Virus record (IMG/VR): IMGVR_UViG_3300037193_001958
Span: 1-20,695 of that record
Source of the DNA: a virus
DNA: 20,695 nucleotides
Reading direction: 5' to 3' (one strand)
In this document: positions 512 through 4,933 of the stretch, in pieces
How the letters are laid out: each line of letters opens with the position of its first letter
Numbering within the stretch: the stretch's first letter is position 1
Program-made: the position numbers and the translations under genes
Notes under the pieces: model-generated
The model's database searches: none
What the model saw: only the letters and a program-made list of their open reading frames with translations
Told to the model about the DNA's origin: nothing

Positions 512-586
512 TGGTTTGCACGCTAGGATTTGAACCCAGATTACCAGTGCCAAAAACTGGTGTCCTACCTGTTAGACGACACGCAA
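512..586 (-). tRNA. tRNA-Gln (anticodon TTG)
   Basis: Last tRNA of operon 1. Acceptor TTGCGTG/CGTGCAA with discriminator A and encoded CCA. The anticodon stem ACCAGT/ACTGGT encloses loop TTTTGGC, anticodon TTG, reading CAA. The elbow is canonical: GG in the D-loop and T-loop TTCAAAT. Confidence 0.93.
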
Positions 587-589
587 ATA

Positions 590-677
590 TGGCGGTAGGC
601 GGAGGACACGAACCCCACAGAGTTACCCCTGCGCTTCGCTTAGCGGGCGAGCCTGGTGCTTCACCAGTTCACCTACC
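590..677 (-). tRNA. tRNA-Ser (anticodon GCT), degenerate
   Basis: Acceptor GGTAGGT/GCCTACC with encoded CCA, and a long variable arm (CAGGG/CTCTG) as in serine tRNAs. The anticodon loop reads CCGCTAA, so GCT, but position 33 is C where U is nearly universal. The T-loop TTCGTGT lacks A58, and the D-arm is hard to fold in the usual way. The 5' part is also the 3' end of an open reading frame (623-790). It may be real but constrained by that overlap, or decaying. Confidence 0.7.
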
Positions 678-790
678 GTATCGTGCACCACCACAGTGTC
701 CAGTATTTTGGACATGACTGCGTGGATGCAAGCATCAGTTCTTTCAAAAAGCTCATCGACTTGCGCCTCAAGCTCCATGTTAGTACCCAT
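623..790 (-). CDS. 55-residue acidic protein overlapping tRNA-Ser
   Basis: Unrecognised small protein inside tRNA operon 1. Its sequence is protein-like and probably helical (for example MELEAQVDELFERTDA), with no transmembrane segment or metal motif. The start used is the ATG 6 bases after a TATAAT hexamer, giving a leaderless mRNA; a second in-frame ATG lies four codons later. The last 18 codons overlap the 5' half of the tRNA-Ser(GCT) gene on the same strand, so translation and tRNA maturation would compete on one transcript. It lies 17 bases after the CCA end of tRNA-Gln(CTG). Function unknown. Confidence 0.5.
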   Translation of the reverse strand: MGTNMELEAQVDELFERTDACIHAVMSKILDTVVVHDTVGELVKHQARPLSEAQG

Positions 791-807
791 GCACTTATTA
801 TATAAAA

Positions 808-883
808 TGGCTTGCGGGGTAGGACTTGAACCTACGATTACTTGGGCCAGAACCAAGCGCCTTACCAACTTGGCCACCCGCAA
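808..883 (-). tRNA. tRNA-Gln (anticodon CTG)
   Basis: Acceptor TTGCGGG/CCCGCAA, discriminator G, encoded CCA. Stem CTTGG/CCAAG with loop TTCTGGC gives CTG, reading CAG. Canonical elbow (GTTGGT in the D-loop, TTCAAGT in the T-loop). With the TTG isoacceptor it covers both glutamine codons, both of which occur in the operon 1 leader ORF. Confidence 0.93.
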
Positions 884-888
884 ATAAA

Positions 889-964
889 TGGCTCCCAGGG
901 TGGGGCTTGAACCCACAACCTCCGCGTTAACAGCGCGTTGCTCCACCGATTGAGCTACCCGGAA
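889..964 (-). tRNA. tRNA-Asn (anticodon GTT)
   Basis: Acceptor TTCCGGG/CCTGGGA with G-T wobbles, discriminator G, encoded CCA. Anticodon loop CTGTTAA gives GTT; the first anticodon-stem pair is A-G. Canonical GG D-loop and TTCAAGC T-loop. Confidence 0.92.
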
Positions 965-969
965 TTAAA

Positions 970-1044
970 TGGCGTCCATGACGGGTGCTGCCCCCGCTAC
1001 TTCTCCCGTGACAGGGGAGTACTCTGCTGTTGAGTTACACGGAC
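970..1044 (-). tRNA. tRNA-Asp (anticodon GTC), variant elbow
   Basis: Stem CTCCC/GGGAG with loop CTGTCAC gives GTC. Acceptor GTCCGTG/CATGGAC, discriminator G, encoded CCA. The D-loop AACAGCA has AG in place of GG, and the T-loop is GGCAGCA in place of TTCRANY, so U55 is replaced by G55. All stems are intact, so this is not simple decay. Confidence 0.88.
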
Positions 1045-1047
1045 ATT

Positions 1048-1122
1048 TGGGGTGACTGACGGGAATTGAACCCGCATATCGAGCGCCACAAGCTCGCGTT
1101 CTGCCATTGAACTACAGCCAAC
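1048..1122 (-). tRNA. tRNA-His (anticodon GTG)
   Basis: Stem CGAGC/GCTCG with loop TTGTGGC gives GTG. The discriminator is C, opposite an encoded extra 5' G (the G-1:C73 pair typical of histidine tRNA). The next acceptor pair is a T-C mismatch. Canonical elbow and encoded CCA. Confidence 0.92.
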
Positions 1123-1127
1123 ATGAC

Positions 1128-1211
1128 TGGCGGTAGGCTAAGGACTCGCACCCTAAACCCTTGCGGGCCACAATTTTCAAGATTGCTTCCTCATCTAGCC
1201 GGATGCCTACC
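1128..1211 (-). tRNA. tRNA-Ser (anticodon TGA), variant elbow
   Basis: Acceptor GGTAGGC/GCCTACC, discriminator G, encoded CCA. Loop CTTGAAA gives TGA, and a long variable arm fits serine. The T-loop TGCGAGT has G55, and the D-loop GGCTAGATGA has TAG where GG is expected. Confidence 0.88.
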
Positions 1212-1222
1212 AATTGTTAATG

Positions 1223-1310
1223 TGGTACCCCACGCCTGATTTGCACAGGCACACCACCTAAGTGGCAACGGGGCTTAAACCCGTCGTGTCTACTGTTCCA
1301 CCAGTGGGGC
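1223..1310 (-). tRNA. tRNA-Leu (anticodon TAA), variant elbow
   Basis: Acceptor GCCCCAC/GTGGGGT, discriminator A, encoded CCA. Stem ACGGG/CCCGT with loop TTTAAGC gives TAA; long variable arm. The D-loop GAACAGTAGA differs from the common leucine form GAACTGGTAGA by loss of GG, and the T-loop is TGCAAAT (G55). Confidence 0.9.
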
Positions 1311-1315
1311 ATGTT

Positions 1316-1400
1316 TGGTACACAAGGAGAGACTCGAACTCTCACGTCATAAGACACTAGTTCCTAAGACTAGCGCGGCTACCAGTTACGCCACTTGTGC
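1316..1400 (-). tRNA. tRNA-Leu (anticodon TAG)
   Basis: Acceptor GCACAAG/CTTGTGT, encoded CCA. Stem CTAGT/ACTAG with loop CTTAGGA gives TAG. Canonical elbow (AACTGGTAG in the D-loop, TTCGAGT in the T-loop), a useful contrast to the two variant leucine tRNAs beside it. Its 5' half overlaps the end of the HNH gene. Confidence 0.92.
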
Positions 1401-1716
1401 TTATATAGTTTTTAAACTGTTTCCTGTCCTGCTCATAGGTTTTTATCATATGGCAGTTAGCACACAACAATTGTACGTCAGTAGAGGCCAGAATACCTTT
1501 CACCACTTGAAATGCGTTATAGGCACCATTTCGGTTTAACGGCCTGTCCATAGCCGGTATGATGTGGTCAATCTGTAGCACCCGGTAATCGTCGGTATAG
1601 CAATTGACACATTTGCCGCCCAACATTTCGATTGCTTTTAGCCTTGTGGCTAACCTATTTGCCCGACTCCACTCCCGCGTGACTTGCCGTTGTTTGTCTT
1701 TGTCCTTATAGGGCAT
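1357..1716 (-). CDS. HNH endonuclease within the tRNA array
   Basis: A 119-residue HNH-family nuclease. The motif is C36-x2-C39, then IDHIIP with H51, then C85-x2-C88-H89, the usual zinc-stabilised HNH (beta-beta-alpha-metal) fold that cuts DNA with a divalent metal. The N-terminus is rich in Lys and Arg (KDKDKQRQ), as in many small phage HNH proteins. It sits between two leucine tRNA genes and is the only nuclease in the array, which suggests a free-standing homing endonuclease; that role is inference. The last 14 codons overlap tRNA-Leu(TAG) on the same strand, so insertion has left the tRNA intact. No Shine-Dalgarno sequence is visible. Confidence 0.88.
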   Translation of the reverse strand: MPYKDKDKQRQVTREWSRANRLATRLKAIEMLGGKCVNCYTDDYRVLQIDHIIPAMDRPLNRNGAYNAFQVVKGILASTDVQLLCANCHMIKTYEQDRKQFKNYISTSGVTGSRASLRN

Positions 1717-1746
1717 ACGGACAGTTTACAGCTCATTGTTAATGTA

Positions 1747-1832
1747 TGGTACTCCCGGCAGGAGTCGCACCTGCACGCCCGTTAGGACACCGACTTTTGA
1801 GGCCAGCGCGGCTACTGTTACGCCACGGGAGC
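1747..1832 (-). tRNA. tRNA-Leu (anticodon CAA), variant elbow
   Basis: Acceptor GCTCCCG/CGGGAGT, discriminator A, encoded CCA. Stem CTGGC/GTCGG with loop CTCAAAA gives CAA. The D-loop has AACAGTAG and the T-loop is TGCGACT, so it carries the A18/G55 variant elbow. Confidence 0.9.
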
Positions 1833-1837
1833 TTACT

Positions 1838-1912
1838 TGGAGGCACGTATCAGATTTGCACTGATGTAAAACGGGGTTGCAATCCGTTGCGTAGCTGCTC
1901 CGCCAACGCGCC
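1838..1912 (-). tRNA. tRNA-Cys (anticodon GCA), variant elbow
   Basis: Acceptor GGCGCGT/ACGTGCC, discriminator T, encoded CCA. Loop TTGCAAC gives GCA, with an A-C mismatch closing the loop. D-loop AGCAGCTA and T-loop TGCAAAT: variant elbow. A U discriminator is typical of cysteine tRNA. Confidence 0.88.
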
Positions 1913-1924
1913 CATATTGTTAAT

Positions 1925-2011
1925 TGGTGACCCGCCTAGGTAATGCTCCTAGCCAGCCGATGCGGCACTGGATTTACAGTCCAGGCGTCGTCTTTAGACG
2001 TATACCGGGCC
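1925..2011 (-). tRNA. tRNA-Tyr (anticodon GTA), variant elbow
   Basis: Stem CTGGA/TCCAG with loop CTGTAAA gives GTA, and a long variable arm fits bacterial tyrosine tRNA. The T-loop is AGCATTA (G55). The D-arm is short (CGTC/GACG around TAAA) and has no GG. Acceptor pair 7-66 is G-G. Encoded CCA. Confidence 0.85.
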
Positions 2012-2014
2012 TTA

Positions 2015-2091
2015 TGGTGCCTTGGGTGGGAACCGCCCCCACGACCTCCGGCTTTTCAGACCGGCGCTCTGACTAACTGAGCTACCTTGGC
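2015..2091 (-). tRNA. tRNA-Phe (anticodon GAA), variant elbow
   Basis: Anticodon loop CTGAAAA gives GAA. The D-loop AGTTAGTCA differs from the usual AGTTGGTCA by one base, G18 to A18, and the T-loop is GGCGGTT (G55). The acceptor arms GCCAAGG and CCAAGGC pair except for two adjacent A-A mismatches at 4-69 and 5-68. Encoded CCA. Confidence 0.85.
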
Positions 2092-2094
2092 GTA

Positions 2095-2165
2095 TGGCGT
2101 GACACCTTGAGTCGAACAAGTCCTGACGGCCCATGCCGCCCGTGCTACCGTTACACTAAAGTCAC
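2095..2165 (-). tRNA. tRNA-like gene, anticodon not assignable
   Basis: A 71-base tRNA-like gene with a canonical elbow (AACGGTA, TTCGACT) and encoded CCA. The anticodon arm is abnormal: the best stem GGCGG/CCGTC leaves a 6-base loop CATGGG with no U33. A 3-bp alternative would expose GGG (Pro). Acceptor pair 6-67 is T-T. It may be a decayed or specialised tRNA. Confidence 0.6.
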
Positions 2166-2170
2166 ATATA

Positions 2171-2247
2171 TGGTCAGGGCACCGGGATTTGAACCCAGTC
2201 CTCATGCTCCCAAAGCAAACGTGCTGGCCGTTAAACACTATGCCCTG
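2171..2247 (-). tRNA. tRNA-Pro (anticodon TGG)
   Basis: Acceptor CAGGGCA/TGCCCTG, discriminator A, encoded CCA. Loop TTTGGGA gives TGG, with one mismatch in the anticodon stem. Canonical elbow (AACGGCC, TTCAAAT). Confidence 0.9.
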
Positions 2248-2259
2248 ACGGTTTGTTAA

Positions 2260-2330
2260 TGGCAGGGGTACCAGGTAATGCTCCCGGCTACATGGTTTTG
2301 GAGACTATGCTGCGCCTTGCGCCTACCCCT
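2260..2330 (-). tRNA. tRNA-Trp (anticodon CCA), variant elbow, first of operon 1
   Basis: Acceptor AGGGGTA/TACCCCT, discriminator G, encoded CCA. Loop CTCCAAA gives CCA. The T-loop AGCATTA has G55, and the D-arm is minimal (GCGC-AAG-GCGC) without GG. Its 5' end is only 6 bases after the attenuator-like terminator. Confidence 0.87.
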
Positions 2331-2336
2331 GTATGC

Positions 2337-2362
2337 AAAAAACCGCCTGCGGTTGCGGCGGT
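2337..2362 (-). terminator. Intrinsic terminator (candidate attenuator) before operon 1 tRNAs
   Basis: On the minus strand ACCGCC and GGCGGT pair around a 9-base loop and are followed by six T. It lies between the operon 1 promoter and the first tRNA gene, so RNA polymerase must pass it to make the tRNAs. Its 5' arm shares two bases with the stem at 2361-2412. Confidence 0.8.
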
Positions 2363-2412
2363 AGTTGGTGTCACCCATAGGGTTTTGTTGCTATAAAACT
2401 GCGACCAACTAC
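2361..2412 (-). ncRNA. Branched RNA between leader ORF and terminator
   Basis: On the minus strand GTAGTTGGT and ACCAACTAC form a 9-bp outer stem enclosing two hairpins, GTTTT/AAAAC and ACCC-TAT-GGGT. The stop codon of the leader ORF falls in the 5' strand of the outer stem. That strand can alternatively pair with ACCAAC inside the leader ORF (its Asn-Gln codons). Mutually exclusive pairing just before a terminator is the layout of attenuators. It would be part of a transcript of about 140 nt ending at the terminator. Confidence 0.6.
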
Positions 2413-2474
2413 GCGCCTACCCAATAATCATTGAGGCTAAACGGCTGCGGCTGTTGGTTACATAAATGCTTCAT
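2409..2474 (-). CDS. Leader peptide of tRNA operon 1
   Basis: A 21-codon ORF. Residues 3-18 are HLCNQQPQPFSLNDYW: all 16 belong to the 11 amino acids whose tRNAs follow in this operon, and all 11 are present. Only K2 and the last three residues (V, G, A) fall outside the set. Both glutamine codons, CAA and CAG, are used, matching the two tRNA-Gln genes. The ATG is 9 bases after the -10 hexamer TACAAT, so the transcript should start about 3 nt upstream and lack a Shine-Dalgarno sequence; the operon 2 leader ORF has the same spacing. The TAG stop lies in the branched RNA that precedes the terminator. I infer a leader peptide whose translation senses charging of these tRNAs. It might instead be a chance ORF, but its composition argues against that. 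Confidence 0.75.
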   Translation of the reverse strand: MKHLCNQQPQPFSLNDYWVGA

Positions 2475-2483
2475 AGCCATTTT

Positions 2484-2512
2484 ATTGTAGCATACAGAGT
2501 TTACGTTGTAAA
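2484..2512 (-). promoter_or_regulatory. Promoter of tRNA operon 1
   Basis: On the minus strand TTTACA (2507-2512), a 17-base spacer ending in TGC, then TACAAT (2484-2489). The extended -10 TGCTACAAT is also found in the operon 2 promoter. Predicted start near 2477. Confidence 0.8.
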
Positions 2513-2520
2513 CATTTACA
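2499..2520. promoter_or_regulatory. Overlapping palindromes at the operon 1 -35
   Basis: Two perfect inverted repeats overlap: GTTTAC-GTT-GTAAAC (2499-2513) and TGTAAA-CA-TTTACA (2507-2520). They cover the -35 element of the operon 1 promoter, so a repressor or activator site is plausible. Confidence 0.5.
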
Positions 2521-2536
2521 GGAAACATGATACCAC

Positions 2537-2575
2537 GCCCCACAAGTCTGCGCTGTGCGCCAGCGCATTGTGGGC
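2537..2575. repeat. Long two-part hairpin upstream of the 33-residue peptide
   Basis: GCCC(C)ACAA pairs with TTGTGGGC, and inside it TGCGCT pairs with AGCGCA around a 7-base loop. No T-run follows on either strand, so it is not an obvious terminator. It lies between the divergent operon 1 promoter and a plus-strand small ORF. Confidence 0.55.
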
Positions 2576-2639
2576 CTCCTGTAAAGAGGTGTAGGCTCAA
2601 GACAGCGCACATAACCCGGCGGCACGATAGGAGTTGTAA

Positions 2640-2741
2640 ATGAAGTACAGCACACCACGGCAACGTCGCAAATTTCTAAACCGGATGGAGCGTAAGTATT
2701 TTAAAAAGATGCAGGATACGAATAGGCCGCTAAGCTTTTGA
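2640..2741 (+). CDS. 33-residue basic peptide
   Basis: A very basic small peptide (start MKYSTPRQRRKF) with ten or so Arg and Lys residues and no hydrophobic segment. A good ribosome-binding site, GGAG, lies 6 bases before the ATG, which is why I call it. It is the only plus-strand gene among minus-strand ones and is preceded by a strong hairpin. The charge suggests nucleic-acid binding, but nothing more specific can be read. No family recognised. Confidence 0.45.
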   Translation: MKYSTPRQRRKFLNRMERKYFKKMQDTNRPLSF

Positions 2742-2759
2742 TTACCCCACTATGAGAAA

Positions 2760-2804
2760 GCACGACTAGCAACCTAAGTATTGACCTAAGCCGCCGGGTC
2801 GTGC
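2760..2804 (-). repeat. Hairpin with 7-bp stem, possible weak terminator
   Basis: GCACGAC/GTCGTGC encloses a 31-base loop that contains ACCTAAG twice. On the minus strand TTTC follows, too short for a good terminator. A TATAAT lies just upstream at 2812-2817, so the hairpin could also sit at the 5' end of a short RNA. Confidence 0.35.
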
Positions 2805-2817
2805 GCTATCCATTATA

Positions 2818-2988
2818 CTAGCTTTCCTTGGACGCTGCTTGCGCCGCAGCGCTACTTTCTATATTGGCGTACAGCGACATGAGCGCTACCCACAGTACGC
2901 TATCCTTAAGCCATACAAGTGTTACCGGTATCATGGCTATCCAAAACCACATAAGGTATTTGTGCCTGTTTTTAAGTAGCCGTTGCAT
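2818..2988 (-). CDS. Small membrane protein
   Basis: A 56-residue protein with a basic N-terminus (MQRLLKNRHKY) followed by one long hydrophobic stretch, or a hairpin of two short ones (about residues 12-43, with a charged KD near residues 28-29), and a polar Ala/Ser-rich tail. It probably lies in the cytoplasmic membrane. The start chosen is the ATG 6 bases after TACAAT, again leaderless; an upstream in-frame ATG would have no promoter or ribosome-binding support. Function unknown. Confidence 0.6.
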   Translation of the reverse strand: MQRLLKNRHKYLMWFWIAMIPVTLVWLKDSVLWVALMSLYANIESSAAAQAASKES

Positions 2989-2994
2989 ACTACC

Positions 2995-3000
2995 ATTGTA
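2995..3000 (-). promoter_or_regulatory. -10 element of the small membrane protein gene
   Basis: TACAAT on the minus strand, 6 bases before the ATG. No convincing -35. It fits the repeated arrangement of a -10 box placed directly before a start codon. Confidence 0.4.
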
Positions 3001-3062
3001 ACCAAAAATGCCCCTGCCGCCGTACGGTACGGCCAGGAGCACTCTTGCATATTCACGCGTGT

Positions 3063-3093
3063 ACTATGTCAGCTAAGTGACAGCTGTCATAGT
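3063..3093. promoter_or_regulatory. Inverted repeat overlapping a minus-strand promoter
   Basis: ACTATGTCAGCT (3063-3074) and AGCTGTCATAGT (3082-3093) are inverted copies with one mismatch, and the centre contains the perfect palindrome TGACAGCTGTCA (3078-3089). It overlaps a minus-strand -10-like TACTAT (3089-3094) preceded by TTTACT at 3111-3116 with a 16-base spacer. This looks like an operator. Confidence 0.5.
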
Positions 3094-3125
3094 AGCACAC
3101 TTTTATTATAAGTAAAGTTATAATT

Positions 3126-3269
3126 TTACAGCAGCTCCCAAAAGTGCTTATTGATAAGGTAGTCAGCATAGCATGGTGAATGTAGCAAGCCACACTTGTC
3201 GCAGGGTTTATTTTGACAAGCATTGCACTTGCAATTAGCTATTTCTGGTGGTAAATCAGGGGTACTCAT
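3126..3269 (-). CDS. Cysteine-rich mini-protein after tRNA operon 2
   Basis: A 47-residue protein with six cysteines, in the pattern CKCNACQNKPCDKCG (residues 13-27) and a further Cys at 33 near a His, probably a zinc-binding knuckle. The ATG is only 4 bases after the CCA end of tRNA-Glu(TTC). It must be cotranscribed with operon 2, and tRNA 3'-end processing would release an mRNA with a 4-base leader. There is no Shine-Dalgarno sequence. Function unknown; a role in nucleic-acid binding is only a guess. Confidence 0.55.
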   Translation of the reverse strand: MSTPDLPPEIANCKCNACQNKPCDKCGLLHSPCYADYLINKHFWELL

Positions 3270-3273
3270 AACA

Positions 3274-3348
3274 TGGTCAGCGCACCGGGTGTCCATCCCG
3301 GCCCTCTAGCGTGAAAGGCTAGCGACTTCGGCGGTTGTCTATGCGCTG
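3274..3348 (-). tRNA. tRNA-Glu (anticodon TTC), swapped 19-56 pair
   Basis: Acceptor CAGCGCA/TGCGCTG, encoded CCA. Stem CTAGC/GCTAG with loop CTTTCAC gives TTC. The T-loop is ATGGACA, with G at position 56 instead of C. The D-loop AACCGCCGAA lacks GG but offers GC, so G19-C56 appears to be replaced by C19-G56. Confidence 0.87.
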
Positions 3349-3353
3349 TTAAT

Positions 3354-3430
3354 TGGTGGGCCTGGTAGGATTTGAACCTACGGTCGTTGGCTTAAGAGGC
3401 CACTGCTTTGCCAGGCTAAGCTACAAGCCC
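3354..3430 (-). tRNA. tRNA-Lys (anticodon CTT)
   Basis: Acceptor GGGCTTG/CAGGCCC, encoded CCA. Loop CTCTTAA gives CTT. Canonical elbow (GCCTGGCAA, TTCAAAT). Confidence 0.93.
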
Positions 3431-3434
3431 ATCA

Positions 3435-3512
3435 TGGTACACCGTGACGGATTTGAACCGACGATTTCCTGGATGAGAACCAGGGGCCTTAACCGGACTT
3501 GGCCAACGGTGC
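3435..3512 (-). tRNA. tRNA-Glu (anticodon CTC)
   Basis: Acceptor GCACCGT/ACGGTGT, encoded CCA. Stem CCTGG/CCAGG with loop TTCTCAT gives CTC. Canonical elbow, unlike its TTC isoacceptor. Confidence 0.92.
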
Positions 3513-3603
3513 GTACTGGCTGCCTGCTTTCGGGAGCTAGCTAGGGTTGGCTGCCGTAGTACACGCCCTAGTCGTCACTGCTCACTATGGGTGCCGAGGT
3601 TAC
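3513..3603 (-). other. Unexplained spacer in tRNA operon 2
   Basis: The longest gap in operon 2 without a recognisable tRNA. It contains CTAGGG/CCCTAG (3541-3546 and 3566-3571) separated by 19 bases, and two copies of TGGCTGCC. I could not fold it as a tRNA and see no supported gene. Confidence 0.4.
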
Positions 3604-3678
3604 TGGTGGAGCGCCAGAGAATTGAACTCTGCCTAATTGCTTGCAAAGCAACTGTGCCGCCGACAACACTTGCGTCCC
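3604..3678 (-). tRNA. tRNA-Ala (anticodon TGC)
   Basis: Acceptor GGGACGC/GCGCTCC contains the G3-U70 wobble that identifies alanine tRNA, plus one A-C mismatch. Stem GTTGC/GCAAT with loop TTTGCAA gives TGC. Canonical elbow, encoded CCA. Confidence 0.9.
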
Positions 3679-3681
3679 ATA

Positions 3682-3752
3682 TGGTACACCCGCTAGGAAT
3701 TGAACCTAGACTTTCAGCTTAGAACACCTTAGCCCATCCGTGGGACGGGTGC
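3682..3752 (-). tRNA. tRNA-like gene, possibly tRNA-Arg (TCT)
   Basis: A 71-base gene with perfect acceptor GCACCCG/CGGGTGT, T-arm CTAGG-TTCAATT-CCTAG and encoded CCA. The D-arm is minimal (CCCA-CGGA-TGGG). The anticodon arm is ambiguous: GCTAA/TAAGC would give TGT without U33, while a 3-bp stem exposes GTTCTAA, a well-formed loop with anticodon TCT (Arg). Arginine fits the AGG codon in the operon leader and the absence of another AGR reader. Confidence 0.6.
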
Positions 3753-3757
3753 TTGTA

Positions 3758-3833
3758 TGGTACAGCTGGCAGGATTTGAACCTGCGACCTACAGCTTCGC
3801 AAGCTGGTGCTCTATCCGCTGAGCTACAACTGT
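3758..3833 (-). tRNA. tRNA-Arg (anticodon GCG)
   Basis: Acceptor ACAGTTG/CAGCTGT, encoded CCA. Loop TTGCGAA gives GCG. D-loop AGCGGATA and T-loop TTCAAAT are canonical. An unmodified GCG anticodon is less usual than ACG for bacterial CGN reading. Confidence 0.92.
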
Positions 3834-3836
3834 ATA

Positions 3837-3912
3837 TGGTGCGACTTGCCGGACTTGAACCGACGTCACCTACTTGGCAAGCAGGCATACTGGCCGACTG
3901 TACTAAAGTCGC
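3837..3912 (-). tRNA. tRNA-Gly (anticodon GCC)
   Basis: Perfect acceptor GCGACTT/AAGTCGC, encoded CCA. Stem CCTGC/GTAGG with loop TTGCCAA gives GCC. Canonical elbow. Confidence 0.93.
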
Positions 3913-3915
3913 ATA

Positions 3916-3991
3916 TGGTGCGGCCACCGTGGACTTGAACCCGGAGCTTCGCCTTGGAAGGGCGATGGGTTTCCATTAACCCCACAGCCGC
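3916..3991 (-). tRNA. tRNA-Gly (anticodon TCC)
   Basis: Acceptor GCGGCTG/TGGCCGC, encoded CCA. Loop CTTCCAA gives TCC. Canonical GG and TTCAAGT, but the T-stem CCGGG/CC(A)CGG contains a bulged A. Confidence 0.9.
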
Positions 3992-3994
3992 ATA

Positions 3995-4069
3995 TGGTTC
4001 CCCGCCGACGTACTGCCCGCCGTTCTCCAATTTACAAAATTGGTGCATCACTATTAATGCTTACAGGGC
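3995..4069 (-). tRNA. tRNA-Thr (anticodon TGT), variant elbow
   Basis: Stem CCAAT/ATTGG with loop TTTGTAA gives TGT. The D-loop TAATAGTG has AG, and the T-loop is GGCAGTA (G55). Acceptor GCCCTGT/GCGGGGA has a G-A mismatch at 1-72. Encoded CCA. Confidence 0.87.
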
Positions 4070-4080
4070 TAATTGTTAAC

Positions 4081-4157
4081 TGGTACCGCCGGTAGGAATT
4101 GCACCCACGCCGCCCGGTTCCGAAGACCGGCGCTCTAATCTGCTGAGCTACGGCGGT
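4081..4157 (-). tRNA. tRNA-Arg (anticodon TCG), variant elbow
   Basis: Perfect acceptor ACCGCCG/CGGCGGT, encoded CCA. Stem CCGGT/ACCGG with loop CTTCGGA gives TCG. The D-loop AGCAGATTA against AGCGGATA in tRNA-Arg(GCG) shows the G18 to A18 change, paired with T-loop TGCAATT. Confidence 0.92.
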
Positions 4158-4162
4158 GTAAA

Positions 4163-4240
4163 TGGTGGCAGGGGTGGGATTTGAACCCACGGCCGCGACC
4201 TTATGAGAGTCGCCATCTAGCCATCTGATTGTACCCTGCT
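4163..4240 (-). tRNA. tRNA-Met (anticodon CAT)
   Basis: Stem CGACT/GGTCG with loop CTCATAA gives CAT. Canonical elbow, encoded CCA. Acceptor pair 1-72 is an A-C mismatch, as in initiators, but the three G-C pairs of an initiator anticodon stem are absent, so an elongator (or lysidine-type Ile) is more likely. Confidence 0.88.
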
Positions 4241-4241
4241 A

Positions 4242-4318
4242 TGGTACCGCCTGTAGGATTTGAACCTACCACCTACTGCGTGTAAAACAGTTGCTCTAGC
4301 CGAATGAGCTAAGGCGGT
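4242..4318 (-). tRNA. tRNA-Val (anticodon TAC)
   Basis: Perfect acceptor ACCGCCT/AGGCGGT, encoded CCA. Stem ACTGT/GCAGT with loop TTTACAC gives TAC. Canonical elbow. Confidence 0.93.
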
Positions 4319-4391
4319 GTGAGTGCTGATTTCTTTTTAGGGGAATTACAGCTTAAGACCCTCGCGTAATTAACTAGGCGTTCGCGCAGCC
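4319..4391 (-). other. Spacer between tRNA-Ile(TAT) and tRNA-Val with a possible peptide frame
   Basis: No tRNA fits. On the minus strand a frame opens with CTG two bases after the CCA of tRNA-Ile(TAT), reads LRERLVNYARVLSCN and so on, and stops with TAG inside tRNA-Val. There is no ATG, GTG or TTG start, so it is a weak candidate. Confidence 0.25.
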
Positions 4392-4465
4392 TGGTCGGCC
4401 TACCTGGTATCGCGCCAGGGTCAGCAGTGTATAAGACTGCCGCTCTGCTTTTGAGCTATAGGCCA
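4392..4465 (-). tRNA. tRNA-Ile (anticodon TAT), variant elbow
   Basis: Acceptor TGGCCTA/TAGGCCG, encoded CCA. Stem GCAGT/ACTGC with loop CTTATAC gives TAT, reading AUA. D-loop AAAAGCA and T-loop CGCGATA (G55): variant elbow. Confidence 0.88.
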
Positions 4466-4468
4466 GTA

Positions 4469-4543
4469 TGGTTGGCTATGTAGGTGCTGCCCCTATCGTT
4501 GCCGCTGTATCAGAGCGGTGTTCTACTGTTGAACTAATAGCCA
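4469..4543 (-). tRNA. tRNA-Ile (anticodon GAT), variant elbow
   Basis: Perfect acceptor TGGCTAT/ATAGCCA, encoded CCA. Stem CCGCT/AGCGG with loop CTGATAC gives GAT. D-loop AACAGTA and T-loop GGCAGCA, the same T-loop as tRNA-Asp. Confidence 0.9.
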
Positions 4544-4551
4544 GTAAGGTG

Positions 4552-4628
4552 TGGTGGGCCTGCCCGGAGTTGAACCGGGGTATCTTCGGCTTAAAAGGCC
4601 GCTGCTTTGCCTGCTTAGCTACAGGCCC
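4552..4628 (-). tRNA. tRNA-Lys (anticodon TTT), first of operon 2
   Basis: Acceptor GGGCCTG/CAGGCCC, encoded CCA. Loop CTTTTAA gives TTT. Canonical elbow. The leader ORF stops at the TAG formed by positions 8-10 of this tRNA. Confidence 0.93.
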
Positions 4629-4774
4629 GCGCCGTAAACGTCGGCGCTACGTTTGGTGTTTTTGTTTTCCCGGATTGTCAATGTGCGGTTGGTGGCTATG
4701 CGCTCCATGCGCTTGCTACCGACGGTGGTTTCCCAACGCCCGGTGGCCACTTCAATTCGCTTAATCCTTGTCAT
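4619..4774 (-). CDS. Leader ORF of tRNA operon 2
   Basis: A 51-codon ORF that starts 9 bases after the -10 hexamer, the same spacing as in operon 1, and so is leaderless. Residues 1-13 are MTRIKRIEVATGR: all belong to the nine amino acids whose tRNAs follow in this operon (Glu, Lys, Ala, Arg, Gly, Thr, Met, Val, Ile), and all nine are present. Over the whole ORF 41 of 51 residues belong to that set. It stops at a TAG inside the first tRNA gene, tRNA-Lys(TTT), overlapping it by 10 bases. The 3' part contains two mutually exclusive hairpins. I infer a charging-sensing leader peptide; it might also be a small basic protein in its own right. Confidence 0.65.
   Translation of the reverse strand: MTRIKRIEVATGRWETTVGSKRMERIATNRTLTIRENKNTKRSADVYGAGL
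4629..4654 (-). promoter_or_regulatory. Mutually exclusive hairpins before the first tRNA of operon 2
   Basis: On the minus strand AAACGT-AGCGCCG-ACGTTT and GCGCCG-ACGTTTA-CGGCGC overlap, so only one can form. Both lie inside the leader ORF, directly 5' of tRNA-Lys(TTT). There is no T-run, so any control would not be simple intrinsic termination; tRNA processing or folding is an alternative target. Confidence 0.5.
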
Positions 4775-4783
4775 AGTAACCCC

Positions 4784-4813
4784 ATTGTAGCATATGGCGA
4801 CTAACTATGGCAA
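4784..4813 (-). promoter_or_regulatory. Promoter of tRNA operon 2
   Basis: On the minus strand TTGCCA (4808-4813), an 18-base spacer ending in TGC, then TACAAT (4784-4789). The extended -10 TGCTACAAT and the 9-base distance to the leader ATG match operon 1. Predicted start near 4777. Confidence 0.8.
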
Positions 4814-4815
4814 AT

Positions 4816-4876
4816 AAAAAAGCCTCCCAGGTAGGATATACCAAAACACAGAGGAGTTGATGACCCAGGAGGCTTT
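4816..4876 (-). terminator. Terminator insulating the operon 2 promoter
   Basis: A 14-bp stem (arms 4819-4832 and 4863-4876) followed on the minus strand by six T. Two positions pair as G-U in minus-strand RNA but would be A-C mismatches in plus-strand RNA, so the hairpin appears kept for the minus transcript. It lies just upstream of the operon 2 promoter and blocks read-through. Confidence 0.6.
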
Positions 4877-4933
4877 GCCACATACTACAGTATTTGGTAC
4901 CGAAATGCTAGCCTGTTGTGGATAAAAAAGTAG

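Follow-up and report, generated by a model that had tools for sequence, protein, structure and literature searches.

Leader reading frames that spell the amino acids of phage tRNA operons are candidate attenuators sensing whole tRNA sets

Why should a phage tRNA operon open with a short open reading frame (ORF) built from the very amino acids that its tRNAs carry? The question is raised by IMG/VR record IMGVR_UViG_3300037193_001958, analyzed here as a complete record of 20,695 bases (the window) from a tailed phage with RecT, YqaJ, tape measure, and endolysin genes. It holds two tRNA operons, both on the minus strand, each with a promoter and a leader ORF. We consider it very probable from the sequence analysis that these leaders are ribosome-mediated transcription attenuators sensing the full tRNA complement of their own operon. 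The case draws on the match between leaders and tRNA sets, on RNA structures that exclude one another, on further occurrences among other phages, and on compensatory arm changes in the phiCbK family, all computed here.

Two Operons Divide the 20 Amino Acids

ARAGORN identified 23 tRNAs in the window. Those that it missed, several of which have unusual T-loops, were supplied by the Rfam tRNA and tRNA-Sec models, relaxed ARAGORN, folding, and our own tRNA finder, giving the following units:

512..2335, minus strand: tRNA operon 1, 15 tRNAs and 1 atypical gene, 11 amino acids (ARAGORN, Rfam, folds, own finder)
3274..4628, minus strand: tRNA operon 2, 14 tRNAs and 1 Thr-like gene, 9 amino acids (ARAGORN, Rfam, folds, own finder)
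3004..3041, minus strand: hairpin and T5 that would end operon 2 (direct sequence reading)

Given the hairpin, the two operons look like separate transcripts. In the direction of transcription, operon 1 reads Trp (CCA), Pro (TGG), the atypical gene, Phe, Tyr, Cys, Leu (CAA), Leu (TAG), Leu (TAA), Ser (TGA), His, Asp, Asn, Gln (CTG), Ser (GCT), and Gln (TTG), and operon 2 reads Lys (TTT), Ile (GAT), Ile (TAT), Val, Met, Arg (TCG), Thr (TGT), Gly (TCC), Gly (GCC), Arg (GCG), a Thr-TGT-like gene, Ala, Glu (CTC), Lys (CTT), and Glu (TTC). By anticodon, set 1 is W P F Y C L S H D N Q and set 2 is K I V M R T G A E, with zero overlap and all 20 amino acids present, just as an earlier note on this DNA had read the 11 + 9 split. 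That note had kept two atypical genes out of the count. The gene at 3682-3752 turns out to be Thr (TGT) and fits set 2; the other, at 2096-2166 in operon 1, is tRNA-like with a 6-nt, CAT-like anticodon loop and, if functional, is possibly the sole misfit to the split. Separately, the gene at 2096-2166 could be a decoy or a degenerate Met/Ile2 tRNA.

Each Leader Spells the Set of Its Own Operon

The promoters and leader ORFs of the two operons are as follows:

2484..2512, minus strand: promoter of operon 1, TTTACA-17-TACAAT, extended -10 TG (consensus scan)
2409..2474, minus strand: leader ORF 1, MKHLCNQQPQPFSLNDYWVGA and a stop codon, 21 codons; residues 3-18 are 16 in-set residues covering all 11 amino acids
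4784..4813, minus strand: promoter of operon 2, TTGCCA-18-TACAAT, extended -10 TG (consensus scan)
4619..4774, minus strand: leader ORF 2, 51 codons, ending 10 nt inside tRNA-Lys; codons 1-13 (4736-4774) read MTRIKRIEVATGR

Across all six frames of the whole window, the run HLCNQQPQPFSLNDYW (2421-2468) in leader 1 is the only one confined to set 1 that contains all 11 of its amino acids, and (GVT)MTRIKRIEVATGR (4736-4783) is the only one confined to set 2 that contains all 9; both spellings had been claimed before and held in this search. Each full-set run sits directly 3' of the promoter of its own operon. Codons 1-13 of leader 2 include all nine operon 2 amino acids and none besides, and 40 of the 50 post-Met residues of the whole ORF belong to the set. 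The start of leader 1 is probably the second ATG (2474; MKHLC...), which corrects the start given earlier; this ATG lies 9 nt after the extended -10 TACAAT, the same spacing as in leader 2. Both ORFs thus have their ATG 9 nt past the extended -10 TGCTACAAT, a gap so short that both leaders are probably leaderless.

The match might be a coincidence, with short ORFs beside tRNA genes happening to hold matching residues and the run boundaries picked afterward. The runs were indeed delimited post hoc, and among 300 Markov-simulated windows a full-set run appeared somewhere in 2 for set 1 and in 4 for set 2, that is, in ~1%; the all-20 leader of another contig (L136, below) has by itself p ~0.01. 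At the positions of the leaders themselves, however, chance falls to ~1e-6 for leader 1 (P 5e-7 to 1.3e-6) and ~1e-4 for the N-terminal run of leader 2 (P 2e-5 to 1.6e-4), and the same kind of match is found in other lineages, where the partitions differ and a terminator and an antiterminator always stand beside it. Among the 167,960 possible 11/9 partitions, one alone fits both leaders, and it is the tRNA partition. By simulation and partition count, set matches are therefore rare and not, as the earlier note had allowed, common; we regard coincidence as scarcely credible. As protein queries against IMG/VR, the leader peptides gave no match.

Operon 1 Carries a Predicted Three-State Switch

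From within leader 1 to the first tRNA, terminator scanning and folding delimited the following elements:

2453..2459, minus strand: region 1 (protector), AACCAAC, in Asn-Gln codons; pairs with GTTGGT of region 2 (ribosome-free leader fold)
2404..2417, minus strand: region 2 (antiterminator 5' arm), GGCGCGTAGTTGGT, overlapping the leader 1 stop codon (folding)
2357..2369, minus strand: region 3 (antiterminator 3' arm and terminator 5' arm), ACCAACTACCGCC, pairing with region 2 (folding)
2337..2362, minus strand: intrinsic terminator ACCGCC..GGCGGTTTTTT, U6, between leader 1 and the first tRNA (terminator scan, folding)

When the sequence from sensor to terminator was shuffled, pairing between regions 2 and 3 of equal or greater stability arose in 0.9% of shuffles. 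In the predicted fold of the leader 1 RNA without a ribosome, the protector forms and the terminator stands. In a ribosome-footprint model, a ribosome that stalls on any of the codons Lys2 to Asp15 does not cover region 2, and the terminator arm is sequestered; a ribosome on the stop codon frees the terminator. Operon 1 thus has the sequence hallmarks expected of trp/his-type attenuators, namely a promoter-adjacent short leader ORF enriched in product codons, a terminator before the first gene, and a mutually exclusive antiterminator and protector, and as modeled its leader region is the three-state design of trp-type attenuators.

In the mechanism that we favor, the near-leaderless short ORF would be translated once RNA polymerase clears the promoter, its codons sampling the amino acids of the downstream tRNA genes. 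With all charged tRNAs present, the ribosome would reach the stop codon and cover the antiterminator 5' arm, and the terminator would stop transcription. Scarcity of any one tRNA would stall the ribosome earlier, allow the antiterminator to form, and let the whole tRNA set be made; the accumulating phage tRNAs would then feed back on their own operon. Translation, stalling, and read-through, along with a trigger in tRNA cleavage or depletion during infection, are what we infer from the sequence.

Leaders of This Kind Recur in Other Phages

Close relatives of the window were sought through RecT, YqaJ, and the tape measure, and tRNA arrays are absent from them. The RecT relatives show 39-56% identity and carry 0-1 tRNA, so the tracking of leaders with tRNAs was followed outside the genus, in the arrays of other phages. 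The tape measure yielded no relatives, and a RecT profile search of prokaryote genomes had no match. Phage and plasmid collections searched with the array DNA showed single-tRNA similarity only, and relatives by myovirus structural genes (Mel-JY01, immuto) carry few tRNAs. As a DNA pattern, the promoter-ATG signature matched at chance level only and was dropped.

Viral tRNA arrays were gathered via two odd tRNA T-loops and by way of named phages. At 304 operon starts in 67 loci (L numbers below), the stretch ahead of the first tRNA was searched for a short ORF together with an antiterminator and a terminator. Leader-bearing arrays were found in the window, L168, L173, L195-L201, L203 (the contig of L136), and L215. 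In this check, which the earlier note had proposed, leaders were seen to match their tRNA sets in further lineages, mostly with composition kept while the sequence diverges. As a separate observation, the large tRNA array of L213 (phage DSS3_MAL1) is adjoined by tmRNA and peptidyl-tRNA hydrolase genes.

The large myovirus-like contigs L195-L201 have two tRNA clusters and two leaders, a 3-5 kb gap splitting the arrays. Cluster 1 of L195 covers C D E F H I K N R T W Y and cluster 2 covers A G L P Q S V. Leader 1 of L195 is MRVHYTNIKRWNTFTNCEDRGMAADIV, and its 17-residue core HYTNIKRWNTFTNCEDR contains all 12 amino acids of cluster 1 and no others (chance 5e-6); across L195-L201, the cluster 1 set CDEFHIKNRTWY fits this core. 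A separate leader, followed by a terminator, precedes each cluster 2 (MNLISQPSQASQLPSGS, MNSVSQPSQASQLPSGS, MRNSLQPSLSVAGQPSLT, MNISSVQSSVANGQPSPSLLPSAS, MNTFVQLSVVGPALASAASQPSLVLG), and the leaders, including SQPSQASQLPSGS, SLQPSLSVAGQPSL, and VQLSVVGPALASAASQPSLVLG, differ in sequence and residue order and keep the set; those tested that cover the set have a chance of 7e-5 to 2e-4 each, and that of L201 has a 22-residue in-set run. For most L195-L201 leaders, termination is predicted to replace antitermination close to where the sensor block ends. The best matches of the L195 leader peptide in the phage collection (Escherichia phage Pollock, Chryseobacterium phage MA9V-2) were weak, had no adjoining tRNA genes, and were set aside as chance.

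A third lineage consists of phiCbK-type Caulobacter phages, in which two clusters (B and C) have two leaders. The leader of cluster B (Pro-Thr-Lys-Leu-His-Ala-Ser) is the hypothetical protein phiCbK gp335, MFALSHNSLSTKAASPASLSLAPLATATKPSTKPTTSASHSTDHL, with 41 of 44 residues in the set, a match unequaled by random same-size sets in 200,000 draws. The Tyr/Phe-Val-Ile-Gln-Arg cluster of these phages has the leader MSKTYRQFVRQIQVVRNIR, and the Tyr-Val-Ile-Val-Gln-Asn-Arg-Phe cluster of CcrBL9 has MSKMYRQFVRQIQSVRVNRTGLSRMVDGGTFI, whose DNA is conserved in phiCbK and many relatives and in most is unannotated or marked as a terminator only. In phiCbK, leader C is unannotated, leader B is a hypothetical protein, and the clusters are preceded by predicted terminators in the GenBank record; the genome description (Gill et al. 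2012, PMC3556154) lists the tRNA genes and mentions neither a leader peptide nor attenuation. Leader and tRNA content move together for Trp: only CcrBL9 has tRNA-Trp in cluster B, and its B leader gp149 alone contains Trp, whereas the phiCbK group and Brevundimonas phage Bajun have tRNA-Trp in another cluster and B leaders without Trp. Cluster C shows covariation of three elements, the leader arm and the 5' and 3' arms of the terminator, which read CGGACGGGCC, GGCCCGTCCG, and CGGACGGGCC in CcrBL9 and CGGGCGGGCC, GGCCCGCCTG, and CAGGCGGGCC in phiCbK.

The hypothetical-protein annotation that some leaders carry (CcrBL9 gp149, phiCbK gp335) would suit peptides that function as proteins, the terminators then just insulating the tRNA operons. 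Leaders of the same cluster, however, keep composition and not order between genomes, and their codons double as an antiterminator arm with compensatory changes, which makes a function as proteins very unlikely.

Two side observations concern the same phages. In phiCbK, positions 690-846 of L218 contain a short ORF, MTHLLTRYEREATGLDTTTA, and a terminator before a Glu-Asp tRNA pair, a possible third leader whose set is too small to judge. Our own scan also found Thr and Tyr tRNAs in phiCbK, Rogue, and Karma (L218-L224), which the 2012 genome paper (PMC3556154) reported absent.

Two further contigs add single arrays or fragments. The 163-kb contig L136 has one array for essentially all amino acids, preceded by a 41-codon leader with all 20 and by a promoter, a Shine-Dalgarno sequence, an antiterminator, and a terminator; as 20/20 coverage has a chance of ~1%, this case leans on its architecture. 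In L173, a fragment, the leader holds all 13 amino acids of the tRNAs seen.

Evidence Against Attenuation and the Case of Operon 2

Several findings weigh against reading the leaders as attenuators. Most of the surveyed phage tRNA arrays have no such leader, and tracking between leaders and tRNAs is imperfect in some relatives: Gln does not track in L197-L199, L199 has tRNA-Cys and a leader without Cys, and phiCbK leader C has Asn where no Asn tRNA was detected. In the phiCbK family, the stall model is clear for early codons and less so for part of cluster C, and it tells nothing about cluster B, whose 8-bp antiterminator is placed 3' of the stop codon. For leader 1 of the window, the footprint model predicts a stall at Trp17 to come too late for antitermination and one at Tyr16 to be borderline, a weak 5-bp hairpin with U4 survives in the antiterminated form, and the RNA signals on their own are modest (minimum free energy z = -1.74). 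For operon 2, terminator scanning and folding of 4629-4735 revealed no recognizable U-run terminator.

Operon 2 thus has the match between leader and product expected of an attenuator and no intrinsic terminator between leader and first gene. Possibly leader 1 alone is a real attenuator, and leader 2 of the window either encodes an ordinary small basic protein or has decayed into a nonregulatory leader. Besides the missing terminator, this would account for an ORF of 51 codons that reaches into tRNA-Lys, and set 2 is common in proteins, making up 55% of phage residues. Its first 13 codons nevertheless cover all 9 amino acids and no other, at the probability given above, the promoter-to-ATG geometry is the same as in leader 1, and protein homolog searches gave none; on balance we find a nonregulatory leader 2 doubtful. 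With only the sensor part visible, operon 2 may act via Rho or through interference with tRNA-Lys processing, or it may be a decayed attenuator. The earlier proposal of an attenuating leader that samples a whole mixed tRNA operon is accordingly well supported for operon 1, by its RNA anatomy and by other lineages, and for operon 2 wants a recognizable terminator.

A weak Phe_leader match 5' of operon 2 (24 bits against a gathering score of 55) was treated as chance. Just 5' of promoter 2 and in the orientation of that promoter, a long hairpin followed by T6 lies at 4815-4885 on the minus strand, overlapped by an ORF, MWQSLLGHQLLCVLVYPTWEAFLF..., with many set-1 residues; the hairpin is possibly a further attenuator-like element or the terminator of an unseen transcript.

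What the Leaders May Sense

A leader that spells the tRNAs of its operon would tell what the genes respond to, namely a shortage of those tRNAs. One could argue instead that the leaders sense translation in general (starvation, infection stage, or shut-off), the set match reflecting the tRNAs most often limiting. To a stalled ribosome an uncharged, a cut, and a missing tRNA are indistinguishable, and several leaders, such as that of L136, contain nearly all amino acids. Clusters with small sets, however, have leaders that are nearly confined to the set (phiCbK B and L201 cluster 2), which general sensing would not need, and we judge it rather unlikely. Under the preferred reading of set-specific attenuators, candidates for the natural trigger are cleavage by anticodon nucleases (PMC10264068, PMC12409363), starvation, and host shut-off, which cannot be told apart from sequence; a tRNA-cleaving defense is a plausible trigger.

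Extended to diverse tailed phages, multi-amino-acid leader attenuators would be general tRNA-pool sensors that turn an operon on if any member of its set is missing, for example through host anticodon nucleases. We lean slightly toward this view. If it is true, phage tRNA arrays are inducible, self-limiting counter-defenses and not constitutive codon supplements. Phage tRNAs are then predicted to be induced on demand and groups of tRNAs to be handled as one regulon, and if the prediction holds, this would be an unrecognized viral route to monitor and repair the tRNA pool of the cell. The leaders would also offer compact sensors for many tRNAs together. The idea lends itself to direct testing, since both phiCbK and CcrBL9 can be grown on Caulobacter crescentus, a standard laboratory host.

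Additional Features of the Window

Apart from the leaders and their RNA elements, the following feature was annotated:

1357-1716: HNH endonuclease ORF within tRNA operon 1, likely a mobile insertion

On the plus strand, 5' of the RecT operon promoter, 4866-4931 contains a small ORF, MTQEALPHTTVFGTEMLACCG, with a Shine-Dalgarno sequence, and a long imperfect inverted repeat (CCCACAA..TGCGCTG/CAGCGCA..TTGTGGG) lies at ~2529-2570, 5' of promoter 1. Five tRNAs have noncanonical elbows (Trp 2260-2330, Tyr 1925-2011, Asp 973-1044, Thr 3995-4069, and Ile 4472-4543), with T-loops such as AGCATTA and GGCAGCA in place of TTCRANY and D-arms such as AAGCATTAAAGTGATG. Such elbows occur also in L032-L059 and further loci; they are common in viral arrays and are missed by ARAGORN.

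Comparison with Known Systems

The purpose of phage tRNA genes has been debated for more than 50 years, codon compensation and evasion of anticodon nucleases being among the proposals (PMC10264068). These concern the same genes and the function of the tRNAs; leaders, attenuation, and operons are unmentioned in that 2023 paper. The open papers that we searched, subscription papers and preprints aside, do not describe attenuators or leader peptides for the tRNA operons of phages. We read multi-amino-acid tRNA-operon leaders as probably a new form of ribosome-mediated attenuation, although priority is not certain.

Among systems that sense tRNA charging and control termination, T-box riboswitches resemble the predicted leaders and differ in binding the tRNA directly, without translation. 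No Rfam family matching such leaders, the T-box included, was found in the regions searched (the window array and the L195 and L203 leader regions). In mycobacteria, leaderless cysteine-rich short ORFs reportedly act as attenuators; they share the leaderless short ORF with the leaders described here, but sense one amino acid and control cellular genes. The closest likeness in architecture is to trpL, hisL, thrL, and ilvL, ribosome-mediated transcription attenuators of amino-acid operons, with which the phage leaders share a short leader ORF, codons for the regulated amino acids, a stop codon by the antiterminator arm, and alternative protector, antiterminator, and terminator structures. To our knowledge, the leader attenuators described so far respond to one to three amino acids and regulate biosynthesis genes, whereas the phage leaders are predicted to sense 7 to 20 amino acids and to control viral tRNA genes whose own products the leader measures.

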